A DNA stretch of 38,119 nt from Deltaproteobacteria bacterium (GCA_021793275.1 JAJYTC010000025.1:1-38119); one strand, 5' to 3'; positions 24,729 to 38,059 are shown, counted from the first letter of the stretch. The notes: generated from the letters alone by a model not told the origin. Program-made: numbers and translations.

Positions 24729-25403
24729 TTAGGGTTTCGCTGGCGGGGATTTCGTTTTCCGCGGGGATGCAGCTGCCTTGAGGTACGCGTCCGCTACCGC
24801 ATTGAGAGGGCTAAGGATTTTAAGATTGCTAAAGACCGCGAGGCTTTCTTTCTTTTTATTATCCAGGAACAGGTTTTCACCAAGTTCCTGCAGGAAGGTA
24901 GCCGACGTGGGATAGACTCCCAGCATCTTGCGATCCACTTTGATCGCAAGTTCATATTTTTTCTCCATTCTGAGCGAATGGGAATACCAGTAATTAGCCG
25001 TGAGGTTGTAGTAATCGATTTTGAGCACGGCCAGCGATGTCTCTTCGACCTTTGTCCAGTCCGCTTTAGCCGCATGAACCAGAATGACCGTGTTCATCAC
25101 CTCGATGGAGCCGGGCGATATGGCCAACGCCTTATTGAGATGCTCCAGCGCCTTTGAGTAGTTCTTGTCCAGGTAGTAGAGCCAGCCCATCCTGTAATTA
25201 ACGGTATAGGTGTTTGGATATGCCCTGTAGACTGCGCTCAAGTCCTTGATCGCATCTTCATATCGTTGCTGCCGCTCGTGCTCGTAGGACTTGTAATATG
25301 CGGCGGTTATTTCGGACTGGTTCAGGTCCGCCGCACGCAGCGGCAGACCGTAAGCTGTCAGAAAGATAACGGCTAAAGCCAAAAGAACCCCTAATTTCTT
25401 CAT
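24729..25403 (-). CDS. Secreted tetratricopeptide-repeat protein
   Basis: A 224-residue protein with a signal peptide (MKKLGVLLALAVIFLTAYG, cleavage probably after LRA at about 25), hence periplasmic. The mature part has about four TPR units, for example YRMGWLYYLDKNYSKALEHL and YWYSHSLRMEKKYELAIKV. The C-terminus is basic and Pro/Lys-rich. ATG 25403 starts the signal peptide; the TTG three codons earlier is not needed. It lies 19 bases after the TPR lipoprotein gene and is the last gene of the PqqD-cluster operon. TPR proteins of this type act as scaffolds; the partner is unknown. Confidence 0.8.
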   Translation of the reverse strand: MKKLGVLLALAVIFLTAYGLPLRAADLNQSEITAAYYKSYEHERQQRYEDAIKDLSAVYRAYPNTYTVNYRMGWLYYLDKNYSKALEHLNKALAISPGSIEVMNTVILVHAAKADWTKVEETSLAVLKIDYYNLTANYWYSHSLRMEKKYELAIKVDRKMLGVYPTSATFLQELGENLFLDNKKKESLAVFSNLKILSPLNAVADAYLKAAASPRKTKSPPAKP

Positions 25404-25422
25404 GTCGCCCAACCTTTGACCT

Positions 25423-27057
25423 CTAATTTTGAACTTGCATGGCGGACAATCGGGAAAGACCTGCCATTGCAGTGGGGTCCCCGGGCCAGAGGCTCAGGGA
25501 GATCCGAAATTGTTTTTCAGCTTCACCATTCTCGCCCAGGTGCAGGTAAGCCCAGCCAAGGCCGTCTGAAACCTCGGGGTAGAACGGTACGGGATGATAA
25601 GCCTGCAGACGCTTGAATGCTTTCAGAGCTTCCTGATAATCTCCGGTGTATATGTAGCTCCATCCCAGGTTATCAAGAGCGTGGCTCGGCCATGAAAAGT
25701 AAAGTTCCTGCTTCGGAAGCTGGCTGAGATTGGCCGTGTAGATCGCAATTGCACCCCGGTAATCCCTCTTCAAGAAGGCAACCGCTCCCAAGGCCACCCT
25801 GGCGCGGACATTCCGGGGGTCTTTTGCTACGACCTCCTTGAGCACAGCCCGGGACTCATTCAGACGCCCCAGGTAGAGGAGCGTAACCCCCTTGCCGAGC
25901 AAAGCATCCGTTCCTACAGCTCCTCTTTCCCTCGAAAGTTGATTGAATTCTCTAAGAGCGGTCTTGAGGTTCAGGTACACCTCGCACCAGGCTTCCATCA
26001 CGCGGGCATGAGAATCATGTCTCGCCGTCGGCAGATACCTGACGAGCATCTCGTGGGCCTTGGCGAATTCTCCCCTCTCGAAGTAGGCCGAAGCAAAATC
26101 CTTGTATAAAGTCTTCCAGCCCCTGTTCCTTTCGATCAATTGGCGGACGTAGCCGACGTCGGCGAAATACGGGTCGAGCCGGATCAGTCTTTCGAGGTAT
26201 TTTTTCGATTCTGAAGTTCTTCTGAGGGCCTTTGACGTAAATACCAGGCCGTACAAAAAAGGCCGTTGGTCGGCTTCAGTCGCGAGGCCCTTTTGGAAAA
26301 GCTCGTTGGCTTTCAAGATTTGGCCCTTGTAGTAGAAGCACCAGGCAACTTTAGCCGCGACCATGGGGTCGTCTTTCTCCCGTAATGATTCATCATAATA
26401 GCCGATGGCCCTGGAATAATCGCCCCTGTAATAGTAGGCATCCCCGAGCGCCGCCCTGATTGTCGCATGACCCACGAAATCGTTGCGATGCTTCAAAGCT
26501 TGCCTGAAGTGCTCTTCGGCGGAGATAAATTGTCGTTGGGCGAGAGCGGTGAGCCCCAGGCCGTAATTGGCGTCCGATATGTTCGAGATGACGAAGATTT
26601 TGTCTCTGGTTCTAAAGTAGGCCCAATTGTAATGGTGCCTGAGTTGTACGGCGCGCTTGAGCTGTTTTTCGAACCATTGCCTGGCCTCAGGGTATCGGCC
26701 TTTGGTGTATTCTACCCAGGCAAGCCCCTGGAGAGCGGCAAGGTTGTCGTGATGTTGCTTGTAAATAGCGGTAAAAAGCCTTTCGGCTTCCACGGTATTG
26801 CCTTGCTTCAAATATGTCCATCCCAGTAGCGACCGGTACTTGTCGGAACCGGGATCCGCCGACCAGGCCTTCAAGGCATGCTGGTGTGCCTGCGGATATT
26901 CGCCGGCCTTAAAGAGCCGAAGACCTTCCGAGTATTCCCGGTTGGCAACTATGGAGGTTACGGGATTGAAGTTTATGCCGGCGCATCCCTGGGCCAGGAT
27001 CAACAGCAAAATTGCCGCAAACCAAATGAGAGTTCGACTGATTATCCGATCGTGCAT
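25423..27057 (-). CDS. TPR-repeat lipoprotein
   Basis: A 544-residue protein with a lipoprotein signal: the hydrophobic stretch LIWFAAILLLILAQGC ends in AQGC, with the lipidated Cys at 25 (the -3 position is Ala, slightly atypical). Ten or more TPR-like helical pairs fill the rest, such as YRSLLGWTYLKQGNTVEAERLF, RAALGDAYYYRGDYSRAIGYY and DNLGWSYIYTGDYQEALKAF (trimmed here to short pieces). No enzymatic motif is seen. GGAGAAAG precedes ATG 27057. It is 38 bases after the M23 reading frame and probably forms an envelope scaffold with the secreted TPR protein. Inner- or outer-membrane placement cannot be decided. Confidence 0.83.
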   Translation of the reverse strand: MHDRIISRTLIWFAAILLLILAQGCAGINFNPVTSIVANREYSEGLRLFKAGEYPQAHQHALKAWSADPGSDKYRSLLGWTYLKQGNTVEAERLFTAIYKQHHDNLAALQGLAWVEYTKGRYPEARQWFEKQLKRAVQLRHHYNWAYFRTRDKIFVISNISDANYGLGLTALAQRQFISAEEHFRQALKHRNDFVGHATIRAALGDAYYYRGDYSRAIGYYDESLREKDDPMVAAKVAWCFYYKGQILKANELFQKGLATEADQRPFLYGLVFTSKALRRTSESKKYLERLIRLDPYFADVGYVRQLIERNRGWKTLYKDFASAYFERGEFAKAHEMLVRYLPTARHDSHARVMEAWCEVYLNLKTALREFNQLSRERGAVGTDALLGKGVTLLYLGRLNESRAVLKEVVAKDPRNVRARVALGAVAFLKRDYRGAIAIYTANLSQLPKQELYFSWPSHALDNLGWSYIYTGDYQEALKAFKRLQAYHPVPFYPEVSDGLGWAYLHLGENGEAEKQFRISLSLWPGDPTAMAGLSRLSAMQVQN

Positions 27058-27095
27058 CTTCTTTCTCCACCTTCCCGTGCGGGTTCAAAATAGGT

Positions 27096-28139
27096 TTAAG
27101 GCTTTTTCAAACCGAAGATCCCGTCCGAAGTCTCCAGCAGCACTTCGCTAAAACCCTTCATGTCATCGAGCACCAGCGAAGTAGTCGCCAACTGCTTGCC
27201 GTTGGAAATTTCTCCCCTGATTTCGTCTGCCGAGACAAATCTATAGTTCCCGGTAGCTTTCCCCAGATCATGATGAAAAGACCTCAGAAATCCGTTGAGG
27301 CTGTGGTTCGCTGAGAGGATGTTGTCCGGAAGGGGATCCTCCCAACTCACCCCTGCCTCACTGCATAGAGGAATCCTGGGCATGGCCGCAAAAAGAAGCC
27401 TCAAAGGGGAATGCCTGCTTCCCTCCAGGCTGTAGAACACAAAACAGTTGTCCTCAAATCCGAAGTAGAGCCTGTCTTGAGTCCCATCGATTTTCAGGTA
27501 GCGGGCGCCGTCGCTGGCCATTTTCACCACGAACCGCGCCTCGCCGGTCTCGACGCCCTCCCGGAGCAATGTGAACGTGAAAACGTCATCGAGGACGAAC
27601 GCGAGCTTTTTCGACAGCCTCCTGGAAGCGGTCAGGGGCTCGACTTTCATGCCGTCATCGAGGAACTTGTTCCTCAGCAGGGCCCCCGCGCCAATGCAGT
27701 TCGACAGATAAAACCGCCCCGTCTCGGAACCCAGTTGGGACGTGTACTGCACTTGCATGTGGATGTGAGGCTGCGCCGAATGGCCGGAGTTGCCGCAGGC
27801 GGCAATTACCTCGCCCGCCTTAACCGAATCGCCGTTCTTTACTTTTAATGAGGCATGCTTCAGGTGTGAGATCTCAACGTAATATCCATATGGGCTGTAG
27901 AGAAGAATATAATTTCCCCAGTTGCTGTTTTTGTCGACCTCCCCGGGTGGATTATCTTTTAAGCAGTCGCTGGCATCCACCACGGTCCCGCTCACGGGAG
28001 CAAGAATTGGTTTGCCGTAGCAAAAGTAATCTTCGATCAGATCGCCCTGGTTTTGATGGGTCCTTCCCCTGTCATCTTCAATGAGGAAATCATAGGCGTA
28101 TTTCCAGGCTCCTTTGTGGGTCCATTTGCCATCGAAACC
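27096..28139 (-). CDS. M23 (LytM-type) peptidase domain, in-frame continuation of the channel gene after an amber codon
   Basis: Directly after the TAG at 28142-28140 the same frame reads GFDGKWTHKGAWKYAYDF, the start of an M23 metallopeptidase domain whose first zinc ligands are the His and Asp of HKGAWKYAYD. The third ligand lies in the QPHIHMQV motif. M23 enzymes cut peptidoglycan or other peptide cross-links outside the cytoplasm. About 200 further residues form an unassigned beta-rich C-terminal domain. No ATG, GTG or TTG occurs in frame before GTG 27995, and starting there would lose the first zinc ligands. The domain was therefore evidently made as the C-terminal part of a fused protein with the upstream channel. 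It is now either decayed, read through, or affected by a sequence error. Confidence 0.8.
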   Translation of the reverse strand, partial: GFDGKWTHKGAWKYAYDFLIEDDRGRTHQNQGDLIEDYFCYGKPILAPVSGTVVDASDCLKDNPPGEVDKNSNWGNYILLYSPYGYYVEISHLKHASLKVKNGDSVKAGEVIAACGNSGHSAQPHIHMQVQYTSQLGSETGRFYLSNCIGAGALLRNKFLDDGMKVEPLTASRRLSKKLAFVLDDVFTFTLLREGVETGEARFVVKMASDGARYLKIDGTQDRLYFGFEDNCFVFYSLEGSRHSPLRLLFAAMPRIPLCSEAGVSWEDPLPDNILSANHSLNGFLRSFHHDLGKATGNYRFVSADEIRGEISNGKQLATTSLVLDDMKGFSEVLLETSDGIFGLKKP

Positions 28140-28142
28140 CTA
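28140..28142 (-). other. In-frame amber codon between channel and peptidase domains
   Basis: The frame reads WTVY-TAG-GFDGKWTHKG. In M23 proteins with this N-terminal pattern the residue before GF/GY is usually Gln (VxQGFxGxxTHKG), so a single C-to-T change (CAG to TAG) explains the stop. The frame is open for 384 codons before it and 347 after it. TAG is an ordinary terminator for several intact genes nearby (sulfatase, nuoBCD, nuoN, TPR lipoprotein), which argues against a changed code. Confidence 0.8.
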
Positions 28143-29294
28143 GTAGACGGTCCATCGGCCGGAAAAAGGCAAAAAAGGCCTCGGAAACACGCGGTCGAAC
28201 CGGCGAGCGAAGTTCAAATAATTGGAAAGGGAAGCTTCCGGGGACGATTTGATCGACAGGGTGATCTCGGGATAACCTGTCTGGATAAGAACGTATACGA
28301 GAAGTAGAACCACCAGGTTGAAAGGCAACGTGAAGACCGGCACGCCGAAGTGGATCCATACCACCGAAGCGGCATCCAGCACAAACACCGAGAGCAGAAC
28401 GCCCAGAAGGGCAAAAAGATAGCTGCGTCTGGACGGCACCAGGAAGACTGCTGCGATGGCCATGCCGGTCAGGATGAAATTGAAGCAATACAAGTTGCTG
28501 TATGCGTTTGTGAAGCTGCCGGTGAGAAGCGCTACGGCGGTGGTGCCGAGATAATAGGATAACACGGCCGCAAAGAACGCGATCCTTGAAAAAACCAGCA
28601 AGCCCGCTAATATCAATATCCCGCAAATGTCGTAGGGCATGAAAATCAGTATGCCCAGAGAGCGCAGAAGGCCTTGAACGCAAGCCGGAAGGGCATTGAG
28701 GTTCAGCAGGCGACTGTAAATGTAAAAAGAATCGACAAAAAGAGAGCTGTACCTGATGGAAGCAAGGTAGATTATTGTAGAGCAGATCAGGAAGGGGAGG
28801 TTCAACACCGGTAGCCGTAGGTTCTTGGACAAAAGCGAATAGAGCGTGCAACTCACCAGCACCGTCAGGGCAGAGGCCCCCGTTACCAGAAGCAGGGACA
28901 GGAAAGAAAACCTGAAGAGAAAACCTATCGAAAAGCCGACAATCAGAGCGTTGTATTCGCAAATGATCCGGACCGGGTCCCCTTTCCTTATCCCGAGCAG
29001 GCTGCTGAAGCTGATGGCCGTAAGCCACGAAAGAATTCCCGCGATGCCCAGATTCAAATTTAGAAACGAGCAGAACAACAGGACCGAGCCAATCAGACCG
29101 CTTCTGACGAATAAGAGCGTTGAATAACTATAGAGCAGTTCCAAGCCGGCCGTTCGGATCTTTGCCCATCCCACATCGAATAAATCGTACAGCCTCGATC
29201 GATGCCCGGCCGCTGACGCCTGCACAAGCGCAGGCCTCGATCCTCCGGCAGAGTTCGGCGGTTGAGAAGGGGATTCGGAAATCATTTCACTCAT
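28140..29294 (-). CDS. Urea-transporter-family (UT) channel, N-terminal part of a UT-M23 fusion
   Basis: A 384-residue polytopic membrane protein with the two-fold repeat of the UT family. Each half has the pore signature: CEYNALIVGF with VLNLPFLI, and LYCFNFILTGM with VFTLPFNLV. UT proteins are channels for urea and related small amides. The first 40 residues are a hydrophilic cytoplasmic tail. The start ATG 29294 overlaps the decarboxylase stop (AATGAGTGA). After the last helix the protein continues through SLSNYLNFARRF to FSGRWTVY and a TAG, after which an M23 domain follows in frame. I recall UT-M23 architectures in other deltaproteobacteria. In this operon the channel may carry the small product of the decarboxylase or ligase and not urea itself. 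Confidence 0.85.
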   Translation of the reverse strand: MSEMISESPSQPPNSAGGSRPALVQASAAGHRSRLYDLFDVGWAKIRTAGLELLYSYSTLLFVRSGLIGSVLLFCSFLNLNLGIAGILSWLTAISFSSLLGIRKGDPVRIICEYNALIVGFSIGFLFRFSFLSLLLVTGASALTVLVSCTLYSLLSKNLRLPVLNLPFLICSTIIYLASIRYSSLFVDSFYIYSRLLNLNALPACVQGLLRSLGILIFMPYDICGILILAGLLVFSRIAFFAAVLSYYLGTTAVALLTGSFTNAYSNLYCFNFILTGMAIAAVFLVPSRRSYLFALLGVLLSVFVLDAASVVWIHFGVPVFTLPFNLVVLLLVYVLIQTGYPEITLSIKSSPEASLSNYLNFARRFDRVFPRPFLPFSGRWTVY

Positions 29295-30699
29295 TCACCC
29301 TCCCGAGAGTGGAACCGCCCGCGCCACCCGATGGCAGACCATCGCCCAACTTCGGATTTCTCAGCCTATCGGGCACGAATTCAAGCGAAACGATATCTTC
29401 CAGCTGTTCTGCCCGCCTGATTTGCTCAACTGTCCCGTCTTCCATGACCATCACTACGGCAGGCCTGTACCGGATGAATTGCATCCATTGCGTCACGTTG
29501 TAGGCGCCGACCGGGGAGATTACCAGCCGATGCCCTCTGGAAAGCGGAGGAAGAGAAACGTTTTCTACAACCACATCTATATTCATGCATAAGGGGCCGA
29601 AAATGGTCGAATTTTCGTAGGCGCCCTCAACCGGACGGTCCAATTCGACCCTGTGGTTGTACCAGTTGGAAGTGTAGAGCAGGTTGACCCCCGCATCGAT
29701 AATATAGCTTCTCGATCCATCCGGGAGCCGCTTTGATCCCTCAATTGTCGCCACAAGATAGCCGGCTTCATCGATAAGCGCCCGGCCGGTCTCGAAGATC
29801 ACCATGGGGTATTCACCGGGGGCAAGATGACGAAGAAGCGTCGCGCTGATGGCCTCGGCATATTCACTGATCGGGGGGACCGACACCTCCGGGGGAAGGT
29901 AAGCCCCTTTGAGCTTGTTTCTTGAGGGAAAACCTCCGCCCATGTCCAGATAATCAATGCTCGCGTCGAAATCCTTTTCAAGGACCTTCATAAAATCGAT
30001 CATCTTCCGCAGTTGGACCGAGTAAGCCTTGGGGTCCAAAATAAACGTGCCGATGTGCGAATGAAGACCTGTAAGGTTCAACCATTGGCTCTGGTGAATT
30101 CTCTTGACCGCGTCCAGGGCAACGGTGGTGTCCAGGTTCAAACCGAATCTGGTCCACTGGGGATGTATCCCCGTATCCATATTGAGCCTCAAACCGACAT
30201 TGGCCCGCCTGCCCATTTCCCTGGCGACGCTTTCCGCTTTGTATATCTCGTCGAAACTGTCCAGATTAACCATCGCTCCTTCGCCGAAAGCAGTTCGGAG
30301 CGATTCCGCAGGCTTGAACGGACCGTTGTAGATGATCTCGCTGCCGGGCATGCCCAGCCTTCTGGCCTTCTGGTACTCGAAATCAGAGACCACCTCGGCC
30401 AGTTCCCCCTCCTGGTGGAAGACAGAGCAAATCGCGTCGAGATAGTTGGTCTTATACGACCATGAAAATCGAACCCTGGGGTAACGGCTCGAAAATTCCC
30501 GGTACACCTCACGGTATCGATCCCGGATAGCCCGTTCGCTGAAAATAAAAACCGGCGAGCCGTACCTGGATACAATCTCTTTTATGCTTGCCCCGTCGAT
30601 TTCGTCCCGGTAGCCCATGTGATATGAGCAACCGAATTTATTCATCCTGCCGGAGACCTGTTTCTTTATAAAAGGCTTCACATACGGTTTTTTGCTCAT
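29287..30699 (-). CDS. PLP-dependent decarboxylase of the DapDC/ODC (fold III) family
   Basis: A 470-residue enzyme with an alanine-racemase barrel and a C-terminal beta domain. The Schiff-base Lys is K83 in FSWSYKTNYL. The barrel contains LHSHIGTF, the phosphate-binding DMGGGFPS and FETGRALI, and the C-terminal domain has GPLCMNIDVV with the catalytic Cys and Asp, plus GAYNVTQW. Family members decarboxylate diaminopimelate, lysine, ornithine, arginine or carboxyspermidine; the specificity-helix region does not let me choose one. It is longer than typical DapDC (about 420). It is not placed with lysine or polyamine genes. ATG 30699 overlaps the ATP-grasp stop as ATGA, and its own stop overlaps the channel start, so translation is coupled on both sides. 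Confidence 0.87.
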   Translation of the reverse strand: MSKKPYVKPFIKKQVSGRMNKFGCSYHMGYRDEIDGASIKEIVSRYGSPVFIFSERAIRDRYREVYREFSSRYPRVRFSWSYKTNYLDAICSVFHQEGELAEVVSDFEYQKARRLGMPGSEIIYNGPFKPAESLRTAFGEGAMVNLDSFDEIYKAESVAREMGRRANVGLRLNMDTGIHPQWTRFGLNLDTTVALDAVKRIHQSQWLNLTGLHSHIGTFILDPKAYSVQLRKMIDFMKVLEKDFDASIDYLDMGGGFPSRNKLKGAYLPPEVSVPPISEYAEAISATLLRHLAPGEYPMVIFETGRALIDEAGYLVATIEGSKRLPDGSRSYIIDAGVNLLYTSNWYNHRVELDRPVEGAYENSTIFGPLCMNIDVVVENVSLPPLSRGHRLVISPVGAYNVTQWMQFIRYRPAVVMVMEDGTVEQIRRAEQLEDIVSLEFVPDRLRNPKLGDGLPSGGAGGSTLGRVNE

Positions 30700-31775
30700 A
30701 TTCCAACCGCCGATCCCAAATCGTTGTCCCTTGGCCCCTCGCTCGATTCCCCGGAGCAAACGACCTGCTCAAAATCCGTTATGTCCTTGAGCATCTCCGC
30801 GGTGAACCGGATCATCATTTTGCCGCTCTCATAGCGCGAATGATCTTCGTAGCTCATTCCCATCAAAAGTCGAACCATTCTCTCGGGCAGATTGATGCCG
30901 CACGCCGCAGCCATGTACACCCAGGCGGGAAAACGCGGATTGGCCTCCAAAAGGTATATTTCCCGGCTCTTGTCCTCGATTATCACCTCCATTTCGAAAC
31001 CGCCCCGCCAGCAGAGGCGCTCGACGAACCGGGATGCAAGCGCCAGCAACTCTTCGTTTCGTATGCTTACCGCGTTCCACACTTTTCCAAGGGCGGTCGT
31101 CGTCATCTTCTTCATGGCAAACAACCCCATATTTCCGCCTTCGCCGTCGCCGCAACCCACCACGTCGTATTCTTCTCCCGAAACGAATTCCTGGATGATT
31201 ATCGGGAACCCCCACTTGTTGGCCAGTTTGAGGAAATACTCCTCGGCCTCCATGTCCGAAGCCGCCTTGTAGGCCTCATAAAAAGGCCCCTTTACCATCC
31301 GGGGCGCCTCGATGTCGTTGAGCGCCGACCTCAGATCGCGAAAAGATGTGCAGGTCCTGAACTCGGGACACTTGACTCCTATGCGCGTCGCGAGTTCGTC
31401 GAGCTTTGTTTTCTCGCGTTCCTGGAAGGCATGCCGGGAAGGAATCAGCATCTTTATCCCCCAGCGCCGCAGTTCGCCTTCGATTTCCATGTAGATTGGC
31501 AACTCAGCATCGAGTGCGCTGATGATCACGTCAATGTTTTCTCTTGCGTGAATTTCTCGGAGCCTTCCCAAAAATAGCCGCCTGTCCGATGAGGGGTAGG
31601 GCAAAACATAGGCTTTGTCTATGATCTGCGTCATGTAGATGCCCGGCTCCATAGAATCGTATGCCAGGCCAACGGCCCTCACCTCCAGAGAACTTTCCTT
31701 GAGTGCCCGGACAATCCCAGTTCCCGGCCCGGGATTGTCCACCGCATTTATGCCGCTTACCGCGACTGTCAACAT
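30696..31775 (-). CDS. ATP-grasp ligase of unknown substrate
   Basis: A 359-residue ATP-grasp protein of the carbamoyl-phosphate-synthase/biotin-carboxylase type. The N-terminal preATP-grasp domain starts MLTVAVSGINAVDNPGPG. The ATP-binding part has RMVKGPFYEAYKA, IIIQEFVSGEEYDV and the metal-binding LLEANPRFPAW. Such enzymes join a carboxylate to an amine via an acyl phosphate. ATG 31775 is preferred to ATG 31781, because GGAG lies 8 bases before it. It follows the PqqD-like gene by 28 bases and overlaps the decarboxylase gene by 4. The natural reading is that it builds or modifies a small amide or peptide whose other step is the PLP decarboxylation. Confidence 0.85.
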   Translation of the reverse strand: MLTVAVSGINAVDNPGPGTGIVRALKESSLEVRAVGLAYDSMEPGIYMTQIIDKAYVLPYPSSDRRLFLGRLREIHARENIDVIISALDAELPIYMEIEGELRRWGIKMLIPSRHAFQEREKTKLDELATRIGVKCPEFRTCTSFRDLRSALNDIEAPRMVKGPFYEAYKAASDMEAEEYFLKLANKWGFPIIIQEFVSGEEYDVVGCGDGEGGNMGLFAMKKMTTTALGKVWNAVSIRNEELLALASRFVERLCWRGGFEMEVIIEDKSREIYLLEANPRFPAWVYMAAACGINLPERMVRLLMGMSYEDHSRYESGKMMIRFTAEMLKDITDFEQVVCSGESSEGPRDNDLGSAVGI

Positions 31776-31803
31776 GGCCATGTCTCCATTTTTCCGCCAG
31801 GCT

Positions 31804-32046
31804 TCAGATGAGATAGGCGTCTTTGAGGCTTCTTATGAAATCCGTGACGTCCGATTCCAGCTCATCCAGCGAAACATCATAGATTTCGGAAAGTAATTGG
31901 ATTATTTCTGCGCTGTCCATACCCTCTTTCAGGCAGCCGATGATCCGCAGACCAACCCCATTGGAGCTGAATGCCGAGCCTGTAGCCGGGTCGAAAATGA
32001 ACCCTGTGTCGCTGATCGCCAGTGATTTCAGTCTGTCTGTACTCAC
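31804..32046 (-). CDS. PqqD-family small protein
   Basis: An 80-residue winged-helix protein. ISDTGFIFDPATGSAFSSN, then GLRIIGCLKEGMDSAEII, and DELESDVTDFIRSLKDAYLI match the PqqD family, which binds leader peptides of ribosomally made peptides (the RRE fold). GTG 32046 overlaps the stop of the upstream small ORF as GTGA, and GGAGGAG lies about 10 bases before it; TTG 32064 is an alternative. It heads the known part of the operon with the ATP-grasp ligase. PqqD-like proteins also occur without peptide substrates, so a peptide role is suggestive only. Confidence 0.82.
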   Translation of the reverse strand: MSTDRLKSLAISDTGFIFDPATGSAFSSNGVGLRIIGCLKEGMDSAEIIQLLSEIYDVSLDELESDVTDFIRSLKDAYLI

Positions 32047-32261
32047 GATGCTGTGCTCCTCCAAATTGGCAGCCGCTGTCCAGTCTCTACAAAAATCAGT
32101 CTCTTAAACGGTCCGGCCATTGATTGAGCTTTCCCTGGCCCAAAGCCACGTTTCGGGCTGTATGGATGCGATTTATTACATAGACTGACGAGACATCGGT
32201 TCTTTCCAGATAATCGGTTGCAATGATCGCGTTCATTCGAGCAACATCCGGGCCGGAACAT
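32043..32261 (-). CDS. Possible small cysteine-rich ORF preceding PqqD (candidate precursor peptide)
   Basis: A 72-codon frame starts at ATG 32261, about 15 bases after the predicted transcription start, and ends with TGA overlapping the PqqD GTG (GTGA). It has five Cys in the first 30 residues (RPGCCSNERDHC, KNRCLVSLC) and a basic middle. No good ribosome site precedes it, although a near-leaderless start is conceivable. It matches no family that I know. The position suits a peptide substrate for PqqD/ATP-grasp, but chance cannot be excluded. Confidence 0.28.
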   Translation of the reverse strand: MFRPGCCSNERDHCNRLSGKNRCLVSLCNKSHPYSPKRGFGPGKAQSMAGPFKRLIFVETGQRLPIWRSTAS

Positions 32262-32283
32262 GAATTCTGTTGTAAATTTTTTT

Positions 32284-32312
32284 ATTATACTGAATTGAAT
32301 ATGAAATATGAA
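32284..32312 (-). promoter_or_regulatory. Sigma70-type promoter of the PqqD-cluster operon
   Basis: On the minus strand TTCATA (32312-32307, 4/6 to TTGACA) is followed by 17 bases and a perfect TATAAT (32289-32284). Transcription would begin near 32277, some 230 bases before the PqqD start. No other strong promoter is seen before the six-gene operon. Confidence 0.6.
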
Positions 32313-32676: not shown

Positions 32677-32958
32677 CTAATTTAGTTTTTCCTTATCGGG
32701 TAATCTCCAAAATTCAGCTTTTGAGATTCCGAATCGCCTTAGAATGGCATCAATTATCTATGGGCTGATTGCTGTCCCTGGCCTGTGATTTTTGACGGGA
32801 TATTGTGGACCCTGGCGTGATTCTGGAGAGTTGGGTTTCAGAAGGATGATTTCTGATCCCTTACCCCGCTTACCACTCCCGCTTCCTTCCAGGACTATTA
32901 CCCCATAAGTCTTGAGCCTAGCTTGCAACTCTCGAAGTTTGAGAGCGCCTCTAGACAT
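32677..32958 (-). pseudogene. hicA: HicA-like toxin interrupted by an in-frame amber codon
   Basis: From ATG 32958 the frame gives MSRGALKLRELQARLKTYG, GKGSEIILLKP, then GPQYPVKNHRPGTAISP and TAG (32760-32758). The same frame continues with IIDAILRRFGISKAEFW and ends at TAG 32677. That continuation is the conserved C-terminal helix of this HicA-like family, so codon 67 was originally sense. HicA toxins are mRNA interferases with a double-stranded-RNA-binding fold. The usual GSH catalytic His is Glu (GKGSE) here, with a His in KNHRP further on. The start overlaps the hicB stop. With the stop, the 66-residue product probably is non-toxic. Confidence 0.75.
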
Positions 32959-33304
32959 GGCACTCCGCCTGTGGTCTGCACAGTTGCGCGATGATCCAAG
33001 GCGGCATGAATCCCTTTGCTGAATCATCCTCGGAGAGAACCGAGATTTTCTTTTCTTCCAGCTCCTCCTTGCACTTATAGAATTCTGCCCACACCTCAGG
33101 AGGAGCCGGCCGATAGAGATGACCGAGGTTATCGTGGGTAAAAGCGTACCTTAGTTGAGCTATGATAAGATATATCATATCCTGGGTGACCGCATCGCCA
33201 GTCGATCCAGTTGCGACAATATCCAACTCCATGCAGTGGACAACGAACGTCTTACCTTCCTTCTTGATGAGAATGTTAAAAACCATGCCGGCAGAACGGC
33301 TCAT
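32951..33304 (-). CDS. hicB: HicB-like antitoxin
   Basis: A 117-residue protein of the HicB type. The N-terminal partial RNase-H-like fold reads FNILIKKEGKTFVVHCMELD, followed by IVATGSTGDAVTQDMIYLII, and the C-terminal half contains RPAPPEVWAEFYKCKEELEE. It would neutralise the adjacent HicA-like toxin. No obvious DNA-binding HTH or RHH domain follows, as in the antitoxins of this subfamily. GAGGG precedes ATG 33304. The stop overlaps the hicA ATG by 8 bases, antitoxin first, which is the reverse of the E. coli hicAB order. Confidence 0.75.
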   Translation of the reverse strand: MSRSAGMVFNILIKKEGKTFVVHCMELDIVATGSTGDAVTQDMIYLIIAQLRYAFTHDNLGHLYRPAPPEVWAEFYKCKEELEEKKISVLSEDDSAKGFMPPWIIAQLCRPQAECHV

Positions 33305-33985: not shown

Positions 33986-34642
33986 TCAAATGCTGCATAA
34001 TGAATCGAAATCCTTGAGAAATTGCTTGATCTCATCGAAGCATGGATGATCAAGGGAAAGGGTGCCATTCCTGAAGAGGTGCCCGATGCCCTTATAGGGG
34101 TCACGTTCATGAAATCCCACTATGGCAGCCCTAGCACGTGCCTTATCCAAGCTCTTCCCCTTCGCCCATGCATTCGCGCCGGTAGATTCGAGAAAAGCGT
34201 CGACGCACCTTTCTGCTTCCGGCCATTTATCATAGATAGCAGGAAGGACCAGCGTCTCAATGCCACCGGGGGAGCCCATAGGGACCGTGAGAATAACCAC
34301 CGGCTTCTCATCCATGTAGCCCCTGCAACCTTGAGCAACGGGTGGGGTGAATCCGCTATCAAATAGAGCGTTTCTGATAAGTTTGTCCGATTCACCGGCA
34401 ACATGGTTATTGGCGACGAGCAATACCGCCTTCAGGACGTCACGAAAACCCGTCGTAATTCGGATCCCCTTTAGAGAACTCCCGAATGCAGAGACCCCTC
34501 CCGTATTTTGCTTGTTAAGCTCCGCTACGTGGCAAATCTGAAATTCGATATCGAGACTCCGCGTTAATGCCTCAAAGAATCCCTTATCGTCATCACCCTC
34601 GCACAACATGAAGCGCGACTTCACGAATTTCTCAAAGCTCAT
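33986..34642 (-). CDS. DUF3226/OLD-like TOPRIM-type protein, partner of an ABC ATPase
   Basis: A 218-residue protein. Its first motif, FMLCEGDDDKGFFEAL at about 11-26, is the Glu/Asp motif of OLD-family TOPRIM nucleases and of the DUF3226/DUF4435 group. The later GSPGGIETLVLPAI is also typical. Where the family usually has a DxD motif, this protein has LLVANNHVAGESD, so metal binding may be altered. The start ATG 34642 lies 9 bases after the ATPase stop with GGGGG as ribosome site, so the two are co-translated. By analogy with PARIS (AriA/AriB) and OLD/Gabija-type systems it may be the effector nuclease of an anti-phage pair; the family assignment is from memory of motifs. Confidence 0.7.
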   Translation of the reverse strand: MSFEKFVKSRFMLCEGDDDKGFFEALTRSLDIEFQICHVAELNKQNTGGVSAFGSSLKGIRITTGFRDVLKAVLLVANNHVAGESDKLIRNALFDSGFTPPVAQGCRGYMDEKPVVILTVPMGSPGGIETLVLPAIYDKWPEAERCVDAFLESTGANAWAKGKSLDKARARAAIVGFHERDPYKGIGHLFRNGTLSLDHPCFDEIKQFLKDFDSLCSI

Positions 34643-34651
34643 TTTGCCCCC

Positions 34652-35797
34652 TTAATGACGGATTTCCCCCCTTTTTTGAAGAGCCGCTCCGAGCTCGCTA
34701 CCGTTGTACTGCTCAACAAATGATTCACCGTTTTCCAACCGAAGTTTAAGAAGAGAGAAATCATCAGGAAACTGGGAGATAACGGGAGCGGCCTGTTCAA
34801 GGCACTCTCTGCTGTGTGAGGAAATGAACAGCTGCGTATTGTTTGTTCTAGACAAATCGACCAATGTGTCCCAAACAAGCGGATATTGCTCGTAAAAGAC
34901 CCCGTTTTCAAGCTCGTCAATAAGGACCACGCCTCCGCTAAATTGGGCCAGTGCGAGCATCATGAAAAGTATTCGGCTCGCTCCAGCGGAGACAAGGGTT
35001 AGGGGAATCATCCGCTGCAGATCAACGTCCGCATAGATAGCCGGTACCCCAGGCACTGGCATCTCTGAGCTCAGTTTGTGGATAACTGGGAAGTGTGTCC
35101 TAAATCTTTCAACAAATTGCTCCCCCCGCTTCTGGATGTTTAACTGCGACAGCCATTGAGCGGCCTCACCTGGACCACCGAACTGGCTTCCAGCGACAAG
35201 ACCGGAAGTGAGCCCCATATTTTTGCCCTGTTGCAGCTCGAGCCCACCTTGAGCGTTGACGGTAGCCAGAAGGACATCGGTATGGCCGTGAAAGTCAGTC
35301 CTGTCGAAAGCCAGAGGTACTATGGTAACCGATGAGCCGTGAGGGGCTATCGACGGCTGGAATCCGATGGGCTGTGGCTGGGTCGTCACGGCCCTAGCCG
35401 GGTCGAAATAAATAAGCAGTCTGGCGACCTTCTCTTCGCTATCCACCATCGAAAACTGTATTTTGTTGCGCGTGTCCGACTGGTAAAAAAAATCGGCGAA
35501 CACCGATTCAAACTGGGATTGGGATGGCGGGCTAGGAAATGTCAATATCAGATTCCGCACCTGGAAGAACCATGGGACGCCCGACGGGAGGCCGTCGAGC
35601 CCCATCTTAATTGCCTCGAGAAGTGCTGTCTTACCGCTTGCACTGTCGCCCAAAAGGATGTTAACGCGCTTCAAATTTTCCATCTCGACAGATTTGAAGC
35701 AACGAAAATTTTGAATGCTCAATTTGTTGACCATCAGGTAATCCCCAGCTTCGCACGTTAAGGCCGCGTAATGATCTTGCCCCGCAGGCAGCACCAT
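34652..35797 (-). CDS. ABC-type AAA ATPase of a two-gene defence-like system
   Basis: A protein of about 381 residues of the AAA_15/AAA_21 (RecF/OLD-like) class. It starts near VNKLSIQNFRCFKSVEM, has Walker A GDSASGKTALLEAI, the ABC-signature-like LVSAGASRILFMM, Walker B VVLIDELENGVF and the switch His in QLFISSHSRECLE. Insertions between Walker A and the signature form the usual dimer region. ATG 35797 has a GAGGGGGG site; ATG 35734, directly before the first beta strand, is also possible. Together with the TOPRIM-like gene it resembles ATPase-nuclease abortive infection systems. Its place among toxin-antitoxin genes supports a defence role, which remains inference. Confidence 0.82.
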   Translation of the reverse strand: MVLPAGQDHYAALTCEAGDYLMVNKLSIQNFRCFKSVEMENLKRVNILLGDSASGKTALLEAIKMGLDGLPSGVPWFFQVRNLILTFPSPPSQSQFESVFADFFYQSDTRNKIQFSMVDSEEKVARLLIYFDPARAVTTQPQPIGFQPSIAPHGSSVTIVPLAFDRTDFHGHTDVLLATVNAQGGLELQQGKNMGLTSGLVAGSQFGGPGEAAQWLSQLNIQKRGEQFVERFRTHFPVIHKLSSEMPVPGVPAIYADVDLQRMIPLTLVSAGASRILFMMLALAQFSGGVVLIDELENGVFYEQYPLVWDTLVDLSRTNNTQLFISSHSRECLEQAAPVISQFPDDFSLLKLRLENGESFVEQYNGSELGAALQKRGEIRH

Positions 35798-37138
35798 GTT
35801 GGTCCCCCCTCGTTCAAATGTGCGCTTCGCCACTCAAGAGGGAGCTAAATCAGCGAATCCGATGCCACAGCCTGAAGGCAACCCGTTCCGATCCCAGGTC
35901 TATAATCTTGGCACCCGAGGATAGCAGATTCCGCTATGTTTGCAAGGAGCATTTCAGACGCAATAGCGGCCTCGTCCTAATGTGTTTCAGGTGCGGGAAA
36001 ATTCAGACCGGAAAGCTACCAACCAGGGCGCCTCAAGATAATTAGCTGGGCTCCCATTAGAATATACCTCTTCCGCTTTGTCCTGGGACGTCCTGTCGGC
36101 AGCCTCGACCAAATCGACGAATCCAGGGCTCTCGCTCCGCCAGGATAGAGCGCGGCCCGTCAACTGCCGCCTGCTCCTGCTAAGTTTCACCGCCGCAGTC
36201 TCGCCATCCAAGGCCCCACTTTCGGCGATCTCACGGGAAGCCCCTGCGACGGCAGTAAAAGCCATAAACGTGCCGCAGTGTTCATCTATCGTACAGCCTG
36301 TCTCCGCGTGTCAGCTGTCCCGCTCAAGTGCCCTGCAAGTCCCTGCTCTGCTGACGGGCTGATCTCCACGTACCGGAGGCCTACTACTGGACAGGCCTCT
36401 CCCCCTTAAAAGGTTCGACACCGCACGCGGCCGGACGCGCTACCTTGGAGGTGCCGCAAGGAGCACGCGCCGAGTGCGCACAGACCGGGAACGGACTTGC
36501 GGGCCCCCGACATGGAAGGTATATCAACCTTCTTTACGCCATCGAGCGGTGGTGGGAAAACTGTTGCTGATGATATCGTTTCCCGCCGCCTAGCACCGAG
36601 GCTGCCGTCCAACAGCAGTCGCCGCATCGGACCTCATATGGCCGCTCAAGCGCCACGTCAACATGCACGTCAGAATCGGCGGGTCCGCCAAGCAATCAAT
36701 CTGCACGGCGCGACATTTTAGACGGGTGAAAGAATCTCTGGCGCCGCTACACACTTCTTCGCAGTCCTTGACGCGTCCTACGCCCTACCACAGCCAGCAG
36801 CAAGCCCCGCCTTCCGTGCATTCGCGCAGGAAGCTTTTCAGAGCAGCGTATAGGGGTTGGTCTGAAAATGTCAAAGGGCAACCAGAAACGGCAATAGAAG
36901 CGGCAACCAGAAGCGGCAATACAAAAGGCAAAATGATCAAGACGGTAAAAAACGAAATTGTGCGAGGGAGAAGTAAATCCTTAGGCTGAAGGGGTTCAGC
37001 AAAAAGGCCGGCGCCAAGGCCATGCAGTCACCATACATCCAGGCTAGGAATCTTAACGAGGGCACTTCGATGTCTGGACAGTCGCAATAGGAATACGGGA
37101 TCGGTGTGGTGTAGCGGTGAAGTCTTTCAAAATCGATC
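35798..37138. other. Gene-poor region of about 1.3 kb
   Basis: No frame here has a known domain, and the overlapping open frames on both strands (for example 36078-36362 and 36406-36627) are shadow-like, rich in Ser, Pro, Ala and Arg. The stretch 36100-36650 is GC-rich without codon structure. A short frame at 35818-36045 has a C-x(2)-C-like piece (LMCFRCGKIQTG), which is too little to call. It may be decayed mobile DNA or hold an unrecognised RNA. Confidence 0.5.
36877..36926. repeat. Two tandem 25-bp repeats
   Basis: The units 36877-36901 and 36902-36926 share GGCAACCAGAA(A/G)CGGCAATA with only a few differences near the end, and a third partial GGCAA follows. No gene spans them convincingly. 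Confidence 0.6.
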
Positions 37139-37564
37139 TCAAGAATGCTCGGCGATCCAATCCGTCACCACTCGGATGAAAAGGTCGAAGTCGCCGAGGC
37201 GCTTTTTGAAGATGCCAAAAACCACCTCATCGTCATTGCTTTCATACCGGTGGACCAGCATGTTCCTGAAGGAGGCCATTCTCTGAAAAGTGGGCAGATG
37301 GTTTTCCGGAATGACGTCATGTTCCCTCATGACCGCGAAGAGGTCGCGGAAACTGGTCGGCTCGCGCCAATGATGAAAAGCTACAAAGTGGTTTGCGACA
37401 TCTATTACCTCTTCTATGGCGAGGTGAATGTATCTTTCAACGAAGGCCCTGCTTCTGACATCCGAACGATATTTCTCCCAGTTTATGTCCTGTGCCATCC
37501 TCAGTTCATCCACATACACCCGAAGCCTGGAAAGCTTCCTTGAAACGAGCTCTTTATCCACCAT
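37139..37564 (-). CDS. hepT: HepT-type HEPN toxin/ribonuclease of the HepT-MntA pair
   Basis: A 141-residue helical HEPN-domain protein (DUF86). The catalytic Rx4HxY motif is RNMLVHRY at about 100-107, intact. HepT proteins cut RNA and are silenced when the partner MntA adds AMP groups to the Tyr of this motif. It follows the nucleotidyltransferase gene by 9 bases on the same strand, antitoxin first. Length and motif spacing are normal, so it looks functional. Confidence 0.88.
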   Translation of the reverse strand: MVDKELVSRKLSRLRVYVDELRMAQDINWEKYRSDVRSRAFVERYIHLAIEEVIDVANHFVAFHHWREPTSFRDLFAVMREHDVIPENHLPTFQRMASFRNMLVHRYESNDDEVVFGIFKKRLGDFDLFIRVVTDWIAEHS

Positions 37565-37573
37565 GGGACTGTC

Positions 37574-38059
37574 CTAACGCAACATGCGGTAAAGAACGAG
37601 CGAGTCGAGGTATTCTCTTCGCGCCGCCGTTTCCTGCCTGATACGCTCTCTTCGGTCCGCTTCGTAGACAAGACGTCCGTATTGGAGTATCTGGTGCTGA
37701 AGAAGCGGCGAGGCCAAACCGAAAATCACAAGGTCGACGTCTTTGCCTATCAAATTGGATAGCTCGGTCTCCAGCCGCACTCTTTCAAAACCCTCCATTG
37801 ATCCGCGGATCATAATAGAGATATCGACGTCGCTGCCGCGGCGCTCTCTTCCCGCAGCGCTCGATCCGAATACATGCGCGGCAACGATCGCACCGTTGGA
37901 TTCGGCAAACTTCTCAATTTTCTCCAGTGCCTCGGCTGAGATCACGACTTCTAAAACGCCTCCTTCGACCGATGAATCCACCTTGTAATCTATGGACGGT
38001 CGGGACGCAGGAAAAGGTCCCATTCCTTCTATCCACATCGATTCTGAATCATACCACAC
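37574..38059 (-). CDS. mntA: MntA-type minimal nucleotidyltransferase antitoxin
   Basis: A 161-residue protein with the polymerase-beta fold motif GSSAAGRERRGSDVDI, i.e. GSx10DxD, at about 65-80, and the third acidic strand KDVDLVIF. MntA antitoxins AMPylate HepT and block its RNase activity. The first 35 residues (up to VVISAEALEKI) are not part of the usual family. GTG 38059 is the longest start; ATG 38038 or a GTG shortly before ISAEALEK, with GGAGG upstream, are alternatives. The pair is a type VII toxin-antitoxin system. Confidence 0.85.
   Translation of the reverse strand: MWYDSESMWIEGMGPFPASRPSIDYKVDSSVEGGVLEVVISAEALEKIEKFAESNGAIVAAHVFGSSAAGRERRGSDVDISIMIRGSMEGFERVRLETELSNLIGKDVDLVIFGLASPLLQHQILQYGRLVYEADRRERIRQETAARREYLDSLVLYRMLR

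Follow-up and report, generated by a model that had tools for sequence, protein, structure and literature searches.

Analysis of a 38,119-nucleotide stretch of DNA from a Deltaproteobacteria bacterium (GCA_021793275.1 JAJYTC010000025.1:1-38119; hereafter the window) revealed, in the region 24729-32312, seven reading frames, all on the minus strand, downstream of a sigma70-like promoter. The features, numbered from the first letter of the window, were as follows.

32284..32312 (-), sigma70-like promoter, TTCATA-17-TATAAT, predicted only, by consensus scan (10/12 matches)
31804..32046 (-), PqqD-like protein of about 80 aa, Pfam PF05402 (9.6e-13), GTG start at 32046 after GGAGGAG
30696..31781 (-), ATP-grasp ligase of 361 aa, Pfam ATP-grasp_3 (1e-6)/ATPgrasp_Ter
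29287..30699 (-), alanine-racemase-fold PLP decarboxylase, ATG at 30699, Pfam Orn_Arg_deC_N (5.6e-31) and Orn_Arg_deC_C
28143..29294 (-), UT part (urea-channel fold) of a UT-M23 fusion, Pfam UT (3.7e-50)
28140..28142 (-), in-frame TAG interrupting the fusion, Gln in 80/80 relatives
27672..28139 (-), M23 peptidase domain of the fusion, Pfam PF01551 (2.1e-12)
27096..27671 (-), predicted LolA/YmcC-like half-barrel, C-terminal domain of the fusion, from an AF2 model and Foldseek
25423..27057 (-), TPR lipoprotein of 544 aa with lipobox LAQGC, Pfam TPR
24729..25403 (-), secreted TPR protein of the TPR2 family, ATG at 25403, Pfam TPR

All domains claimed in the earlier note (PqqD, ATP-grasp, decarboxylase, UT, M23 and two TPR proteins) were matched by Pfam, and a sigma70-like candidate for the promoter that it proposed lay at 32312-32284. 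Its claim that the genes were joined by ATGA or similar overlaps or by gaps below 40 bases agreed with the coordinates: PqqD and ATP-grasp were separated by 22 bases, ATP-grasp and decarboxylase were joined by an ATGA overlap (30699-30696), the decarboxylase and UT frames overlapped by 8 bases, 38 bases lay between the M23 end and the TPR lipoprotein gene, and the last TPR gene was preceded by a gap of 10-20 bases. The operon is thus real, but UT-M23 was not the single open gene described, as its frame is split by the TAG in this assembly; the TAG, the LolA-like domain and the lack of a barrel gene described below were absent from that note. Riboswitch control of the operon was dropped because an Rfam search gave no match. 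Other features lay elsewhere in the window. A small frame at 32683-32955 (-) resembled a HicA-type toxin by eye and contained a second in-frame TAG near 32760, and a HicB-like frame lay beside it at 32951-33304, both without a Pfam match. An AAA_15 ATPase followed by a weak, sub-cut-off DUF3226 match (33986-35833, -) formed a pair that we take to resemble OLD-type ATPase/TOPRIM defence pairs, and a pair of HepT-like and nucleotidyltransferase genes at 37139-38059 (-) was assigned by Pfam to the MNT-HepT type of toxin-antitoxin modules.

A contig scan for the fusion returned 296 relatives, of which 80 were kept and used in the alignments. In the window, the M23 part resumed in the same frame after the TAG and ran to 27096, and in the same-genus genome G004 the fusion was uninterrupted with Gln at this site. 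Since all 80 aligned relatives have Gln there, the unbroken fusion was taken as normal, with a nonsense codon in the copy of the window. Rescue of the M23 part by re-initiation was ruled out because no in-frame start codon was found between the TAG and the first zinc-ligand His. Reading of the TAG as an amino acid was also rejected: a PylS search gave nothing over the cut-off, TAG served as an ordinary stop in this genome (37/159 coding-like ends in about 280 kb), and the only two TAG-split coding-like segment pairs in that sequence both failed a stricter test requiring both flanks to be coding-like. An old pseudogene was rejected because the dN/dS of the M23 part relative to G004 (0.23) resembled that of the UT part (0.24). 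Given the similar dN/dS of both parts and the ordinary use of TAG as a stop, the TAG was attributed either to a nonsense mutation of recent date or to an error in the sequence. With this codon in the fusion and no barrel gene adjoining it, the window copy may have lost its function recently, unless the TAG is such an error.

The AF2 model of the fusion, built from the intact G004 orthologue, had a pLDDT of 83. Its UT part matched dvUT and the human UTs with a Z of 35, and the UT-family fold and pore-loop signatures were present, with motif residues near invariant among the 80 sequences. The UT part scored 104.6 against the NCBIfam equivalog TIGR03441 and did not reach the cut-off of 274.6. The M23 part of the model resembled LytM domains (Z 13-14), and the zinc-ligand and catalytic set H408, D417, H492, H525 and H527 was invariant in 80/80 aligned relatives. 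Modelled alone, the C-terminal domain reached a pLDDT of 92; Foldseek gave a LolA probability of 0.97-0.99 but an E of 2e-3, and structure comparison (VIA) gave Z 6-9 to LolA, YmcC and MTP types, the best being 9. The domain is accordingly described here as a predicted LolA/YmcC-like half-barrel. The termini of human UT are cytoplasmic, and alignment to human and mammalian UT suggested a cytoplasmic M23 domain. The loop charges favoured periplasmic termini in 72/80 sequences, though the N- and C-terminal segments were positive, and the M23 and LolA-like domain types also suggested the periplasmic side. No plasmid in the collection searched matched the fusion over 80 percent of its length, and among the places listed the best-ranked ones were of the M23 family.

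The PqqD-like protein scored 21.3 bits against the HPr-rel-A PqqD model TIGR04353 (cut-off 35) and fell under every RiPP-type NCBIfam cut-off, and its orthologues adjoined the ligase in nearly all loci. A carrier role in which the C-terminus is modified was rejected because the C-terminal residues vary, and a 46-aa frame ahead of the window gene was rejected as a precursor peptide because it was missing from a close relative. The nearest solved structure to the ligase was 2pn1 (6e-18), and its C-terminal EINPRFP-type (ExNPRFP) motif was conserved (alignment A2). The decarboxylase was closest to the N-citrylornithine decarboxylase FigC (7kh2, 6e-86; LysA, 4e-65), and the PLP Lys of SYKTNYL was invariant in its alignment. 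FigC and its relatives SbnH, AcsE, MccE and BtrK act on conjugated amino acids and are grouped with diaminopimelate decarboxylases in a published tree (PMC7857480). The FigC pocket residues M355 and Y383 were retained, but the citrate-contacting H357 and R387 (PMC7857480) were replaced by Ile/Leu and an invariant Gln at the aligned positions, so that a citryl substrate appears unlikely from the alignment. The enzyme did not qualify as the genome's LysA: it had GPLCMNID instead of the LysA motif CES(G/S)D, its NCBIfam lysA score of 209 was under the cut-off of 297.9, and a separate canonical LysA (CESGD), overlapping a DapF-like frame, was present in the same genome (G000:C5).

The operon proved to be one copy of a widely conserved and apparently undescribed system, whose hosts, bacteria with two membranes, belonged to over a dozen phyla and were in many cases hydrothermal or sulfur-cycling. 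The shared order was PqqD-like protein, ATP-grasp ligase, alanine-racemase-fold decarboxylase, UT-M23, usually an outer-membrane beta-barrel, and a secreted TPR protein. According to their labels, which may err for MAGs, the kept relatives belonged to Aquificota, Thermodesulfobacteriota and other delta lineages, Campylobacterota, Cloacimonadota, Calditrichota, Ignavibacteria, Gemmatimonadota, Verrucomicrobia, Lentisphaerae, Planctomycetota, Gammaproteobacteria, Nitrospinia, Omnitrophus, Riflebacteria, WOR-3 and others. No Bacillota or Actinomycetota label appeared among the fusion relatives in the contig-scan list, which would fit a requirement for an outer membrane. Among loci with enough flanking sequence, PqqD, ligase and decarboxylase stood in order upstream of the fusion in 49/56, and TPR2 and the barrel were found downstream in 52/64 and 40/64, respectively. 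In 395 genomes of the window's phylum, the fusion (full or cut by a contig end) occurred in 16 and the ligase in 17, and all 16 fusion genomes carried both (16/16; P ~1e-27); every fusion locus had the same order, and partial copies ended at contig ends. Conserved gene order across distant genera had been named beforehand as the test of a system, and the many phyla together with the 49/56 and 16/16 counts bore it out decisively. In keeping with the remark in the earlier note that no pathway was known to its author to use this set, no paper joining these gene families was found in the open-access literature; "undescribed" is used here in that sense.

The system was patchy, since only G000 and G004 carried it among eleven genomes of the window's genus. 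G004 had a second, diverged copy of UT-M23 and TPR2, about 50 percent identical and cut by a contig end (L037 1-2096, contig C39). At L085 (1661-3790), UT-M23 was inverted within an otherwise one-strand operon, possibly as an assembly artefact, and in one of the 395 genomes of the phylum (L048) a TPR2 relative lay upstream of the fusion instead of downstream. The genome with the ligase and no fusion (G074) had TPR, PqqD, two tandem ATP-grasp genes and decarboxylase on a 4.8-kb contig (L178 1-4769), its PqqD having a Cys-rich N-terminal extension. The barrel was about 290 aa in most relatives, with a C-terminal Phe in 39/44, and was fused to TPRs at the Verrucomicrobia locus L101. In the window and G004, the TPR lipoprotein stood at the usual place of the barrel. 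The only recurrent extra neighbours that were widespread were two-component or kinase genes, which are generic, and Verrucomicrobia surface proteins. In Verrucomicrobia (L101 12335-16389, L111, L123, L126, L130, L132, L091) genes for large surface proteins often lay downstream of the operon; one of these proteins had an endosialidase chaperone domain and another was Ig-like, and they may be clients or there by chance.

Genomes in which the genes were separated argue for a shared function more strongly than operon structure does by itself. In 12 genomes, the fusion stood alone or near a contig end, and the ligase was found elsewhere in 9 of these; PqqD was beside the ligase in 8/8 regions read, and the decarboxylase in 6/8. 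In Shewanella, the genus of L131, 4 of the 97 genomes searched, from four species, carried a variant cluster of constant order: UT-M23, TPR2, a fold-I Orn/Lys/Arg decarboxylase, another ATP-grasp protein (a weak Pfam match, CPSase_L_D2, 4e-4), an AAT-family protein, a similarly sized secreted protein (296 aa) and a TPR protein. The L131 genome had no orthologue of the window ligase, and its operon had no PqqD gene. Because two unrelated modules thus share a decarboxylase and an ATP-grasp protein, the swap points to a decarboxylated, amide-linked amine as the product. As such strains can be cultured, this natural replacement of one synthesis module by an unrelated one opens the chemistry to direct tests.

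We tentatively favor, at somewhat less than an even chance, a conserved system of diderm bacteria that makes an amide-conjugated amine and carries out its export or assembly across the envelope. The PqqD-like protein would hold either a peptide or the ligase, the ATP-grasp enzyme would join an amino acid to a partner through an ATP-driven amide bond, and the FigC-like decarboxylase would strip the carboxylate from the conjugated amino acid to leave an amide-linked amine. The product could then cross the inner membrane through the UT-fold channel, undergo trimming or release by the fused M23 domain, for which the LolA-like domain would offer a binding surface, and exit by way of the outer-membrane barrel and the periplasmic TPR protein. 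Gene order, co-occurrence, predicted folds, conserved catalytic residues and the Shewanella swap are the observations behind this proposal; we infer the rest, namely the reaction order, the cargo, the direction of transport and what each envelope part does. The earlier suggestion that the cell makes a small amide and hands it to the envelope gained partial support, as it fits the ligase/decarboxylase pair, the swap and the barrel of most relatives; the TPR proteins may act as the scaffold proposed there. The constriction of the UT pore is 2-3 Å wide (PMC10541013), and a large conjugate may not fit through it, which counts against export, as do the stop codon in the fusion of the window copy and its lack of a neighbouring barrel. 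A bolder form is improbable on present evidence: a peptide-borne or small-molecule amine of a new class, common to deep-branching diderm phyla, would be built by the ATP-grasp and PLP-decarboxylase pair on a PqqD-held carrier, freed by M23 and moved by a repurposed urea channel, which would constitute an ATPase-free type of peptidase-channel exporter. A six-gene unit kept together in more than a dozen phyla must serve a useful role.

The system might instead modify the envelope, the amide-linked amine being added to or removed from peptidoglycan stem peptides that a periplasmic M23 domain opens or trims. The outcome, reached by other chemistry, would match that of peptidoglycan polyamination in Negativicutes, where cadaverine or putrescine on the stem-peptide D-Glu tethers the outer membrane (PMC10628300). 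The mostly extracytoplasmic types of the M23 and LolA-like folds, the loop charges favoring periplasmic termini and the outer-membrane barrel and secreted TPR protein that the operon encodes agree with such a function, but no peptidoglycan synthesis gene recurred widely among the neighbours and the urea channel would have no obvious role. Moreover, the closest free M23 homologues on plasmids included, among the matches listed, haloarchaeal ones, and haloarchaea have no murein. Envelope modification was judged rather unlikely.

A ribosomal peptide pathway, with PqqD recognising a precursor that the ligase and decarboxylase modify and UT-M23 acting as leader peptidase and exporter, draws on the known peptide chaperone function of PqqD-like proteins, on the pairing of PqqD and ligase where the rest is scattered, and on MccE of the same decarboxylase clade, which acts on a peptide conjugate (PMC7857480). 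It was considered quite unlikely, as no conserved small frame was found upstream of PqqD in the inspected loci, where the upstream genes differ, PqqD fell under the RiPP-type cut-offs, and the Shewanella genome of L131 showed neither a PqqD gene in the operon nor an orthologue of the ligase. Uptake is similarly doubtful: the UT family conducts urea passively and the barrel could be a porin, so that barrel, TPR protein and UT might import a urea-like or amide nitrogen compound for processing by M23 and the cytosolic enzymes, but the ATP-spending ligase and FigC-like decarboxylase are biosynthetic in type, and no urease or amidase cluster was found among the recurrent neighbours. A chance grouping of unrelated genes in this genome could appeal to the differing window copy, with its extra TPR lipoprotein and nonsense codon, but was refuted, with next to no probability left, by the order kept in many phyla, the co-occurrence statistics and the co-occurrence of the genes when split.

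Comparison of the export or assembly system proposed here with known systems revealed partial likenesses. Like the FigC/FslC and NIS siderophore pathways (rhizoferrin, staphyloferrin B, achromobactin), it pairs an alanine-racemase-fold decarboxylase with an ATP-dependent amide former; however, the ligase there is an NIS synthetase instead of an ATP-grasp enzyme, an MFS exporter takes the place of UT-M23, barrel and TPR protein, and while M355 and Y383 of the FigC pocket are shared, the citrate-contacting H357 and R387 are exchanged for Ile/Leu and Gln in the window family. Butirosin biosynthesis, of which BtrJ is the ATP-grasp ligase, resembles it in the BtrJ-BtrK-BtrI set, where an ATP-grasp ligase works with a same-clade decarboxylase and a small partner of 80-90 aa, but that partner is an acyl carrier protein instead of a PqqD-like protein, and no aminoglycoside genes are present here. 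The 10-helix fold (Z 35) and the pore-loop motifs LPxxxLPF and PxFTLPFN of dvUT, UT-A and UT-B are retained, whereas here the channel is fused to M23 and LolA-like domains inside a biosynthetic operon. The C39-ABC RiPP exporters also have a peptidase fused to a membrane transporter beside modifying enzymes, but the present fusion has a UT channel without ATPase and an M23 metallopeptidase, and no precursor peptide was found in the loci inspected. The polymer exporters PgaA, BcsC and AlgK-AlgE combine TPRs with an outer-membrane barrel, as does the fused protein of L101; the barrel here is of about 290 aa in most relatives, and the operon has no glycosyltransferase. Each single domain family is already known. 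Since to our knowledge no kind of system that we could name or find joins a urea-channel/M23/LolA-like fusion to a dedicated synthesis module, the system was regarded as a new kind, in which a urea-channel fold is built into a biosynthetic envelope system.
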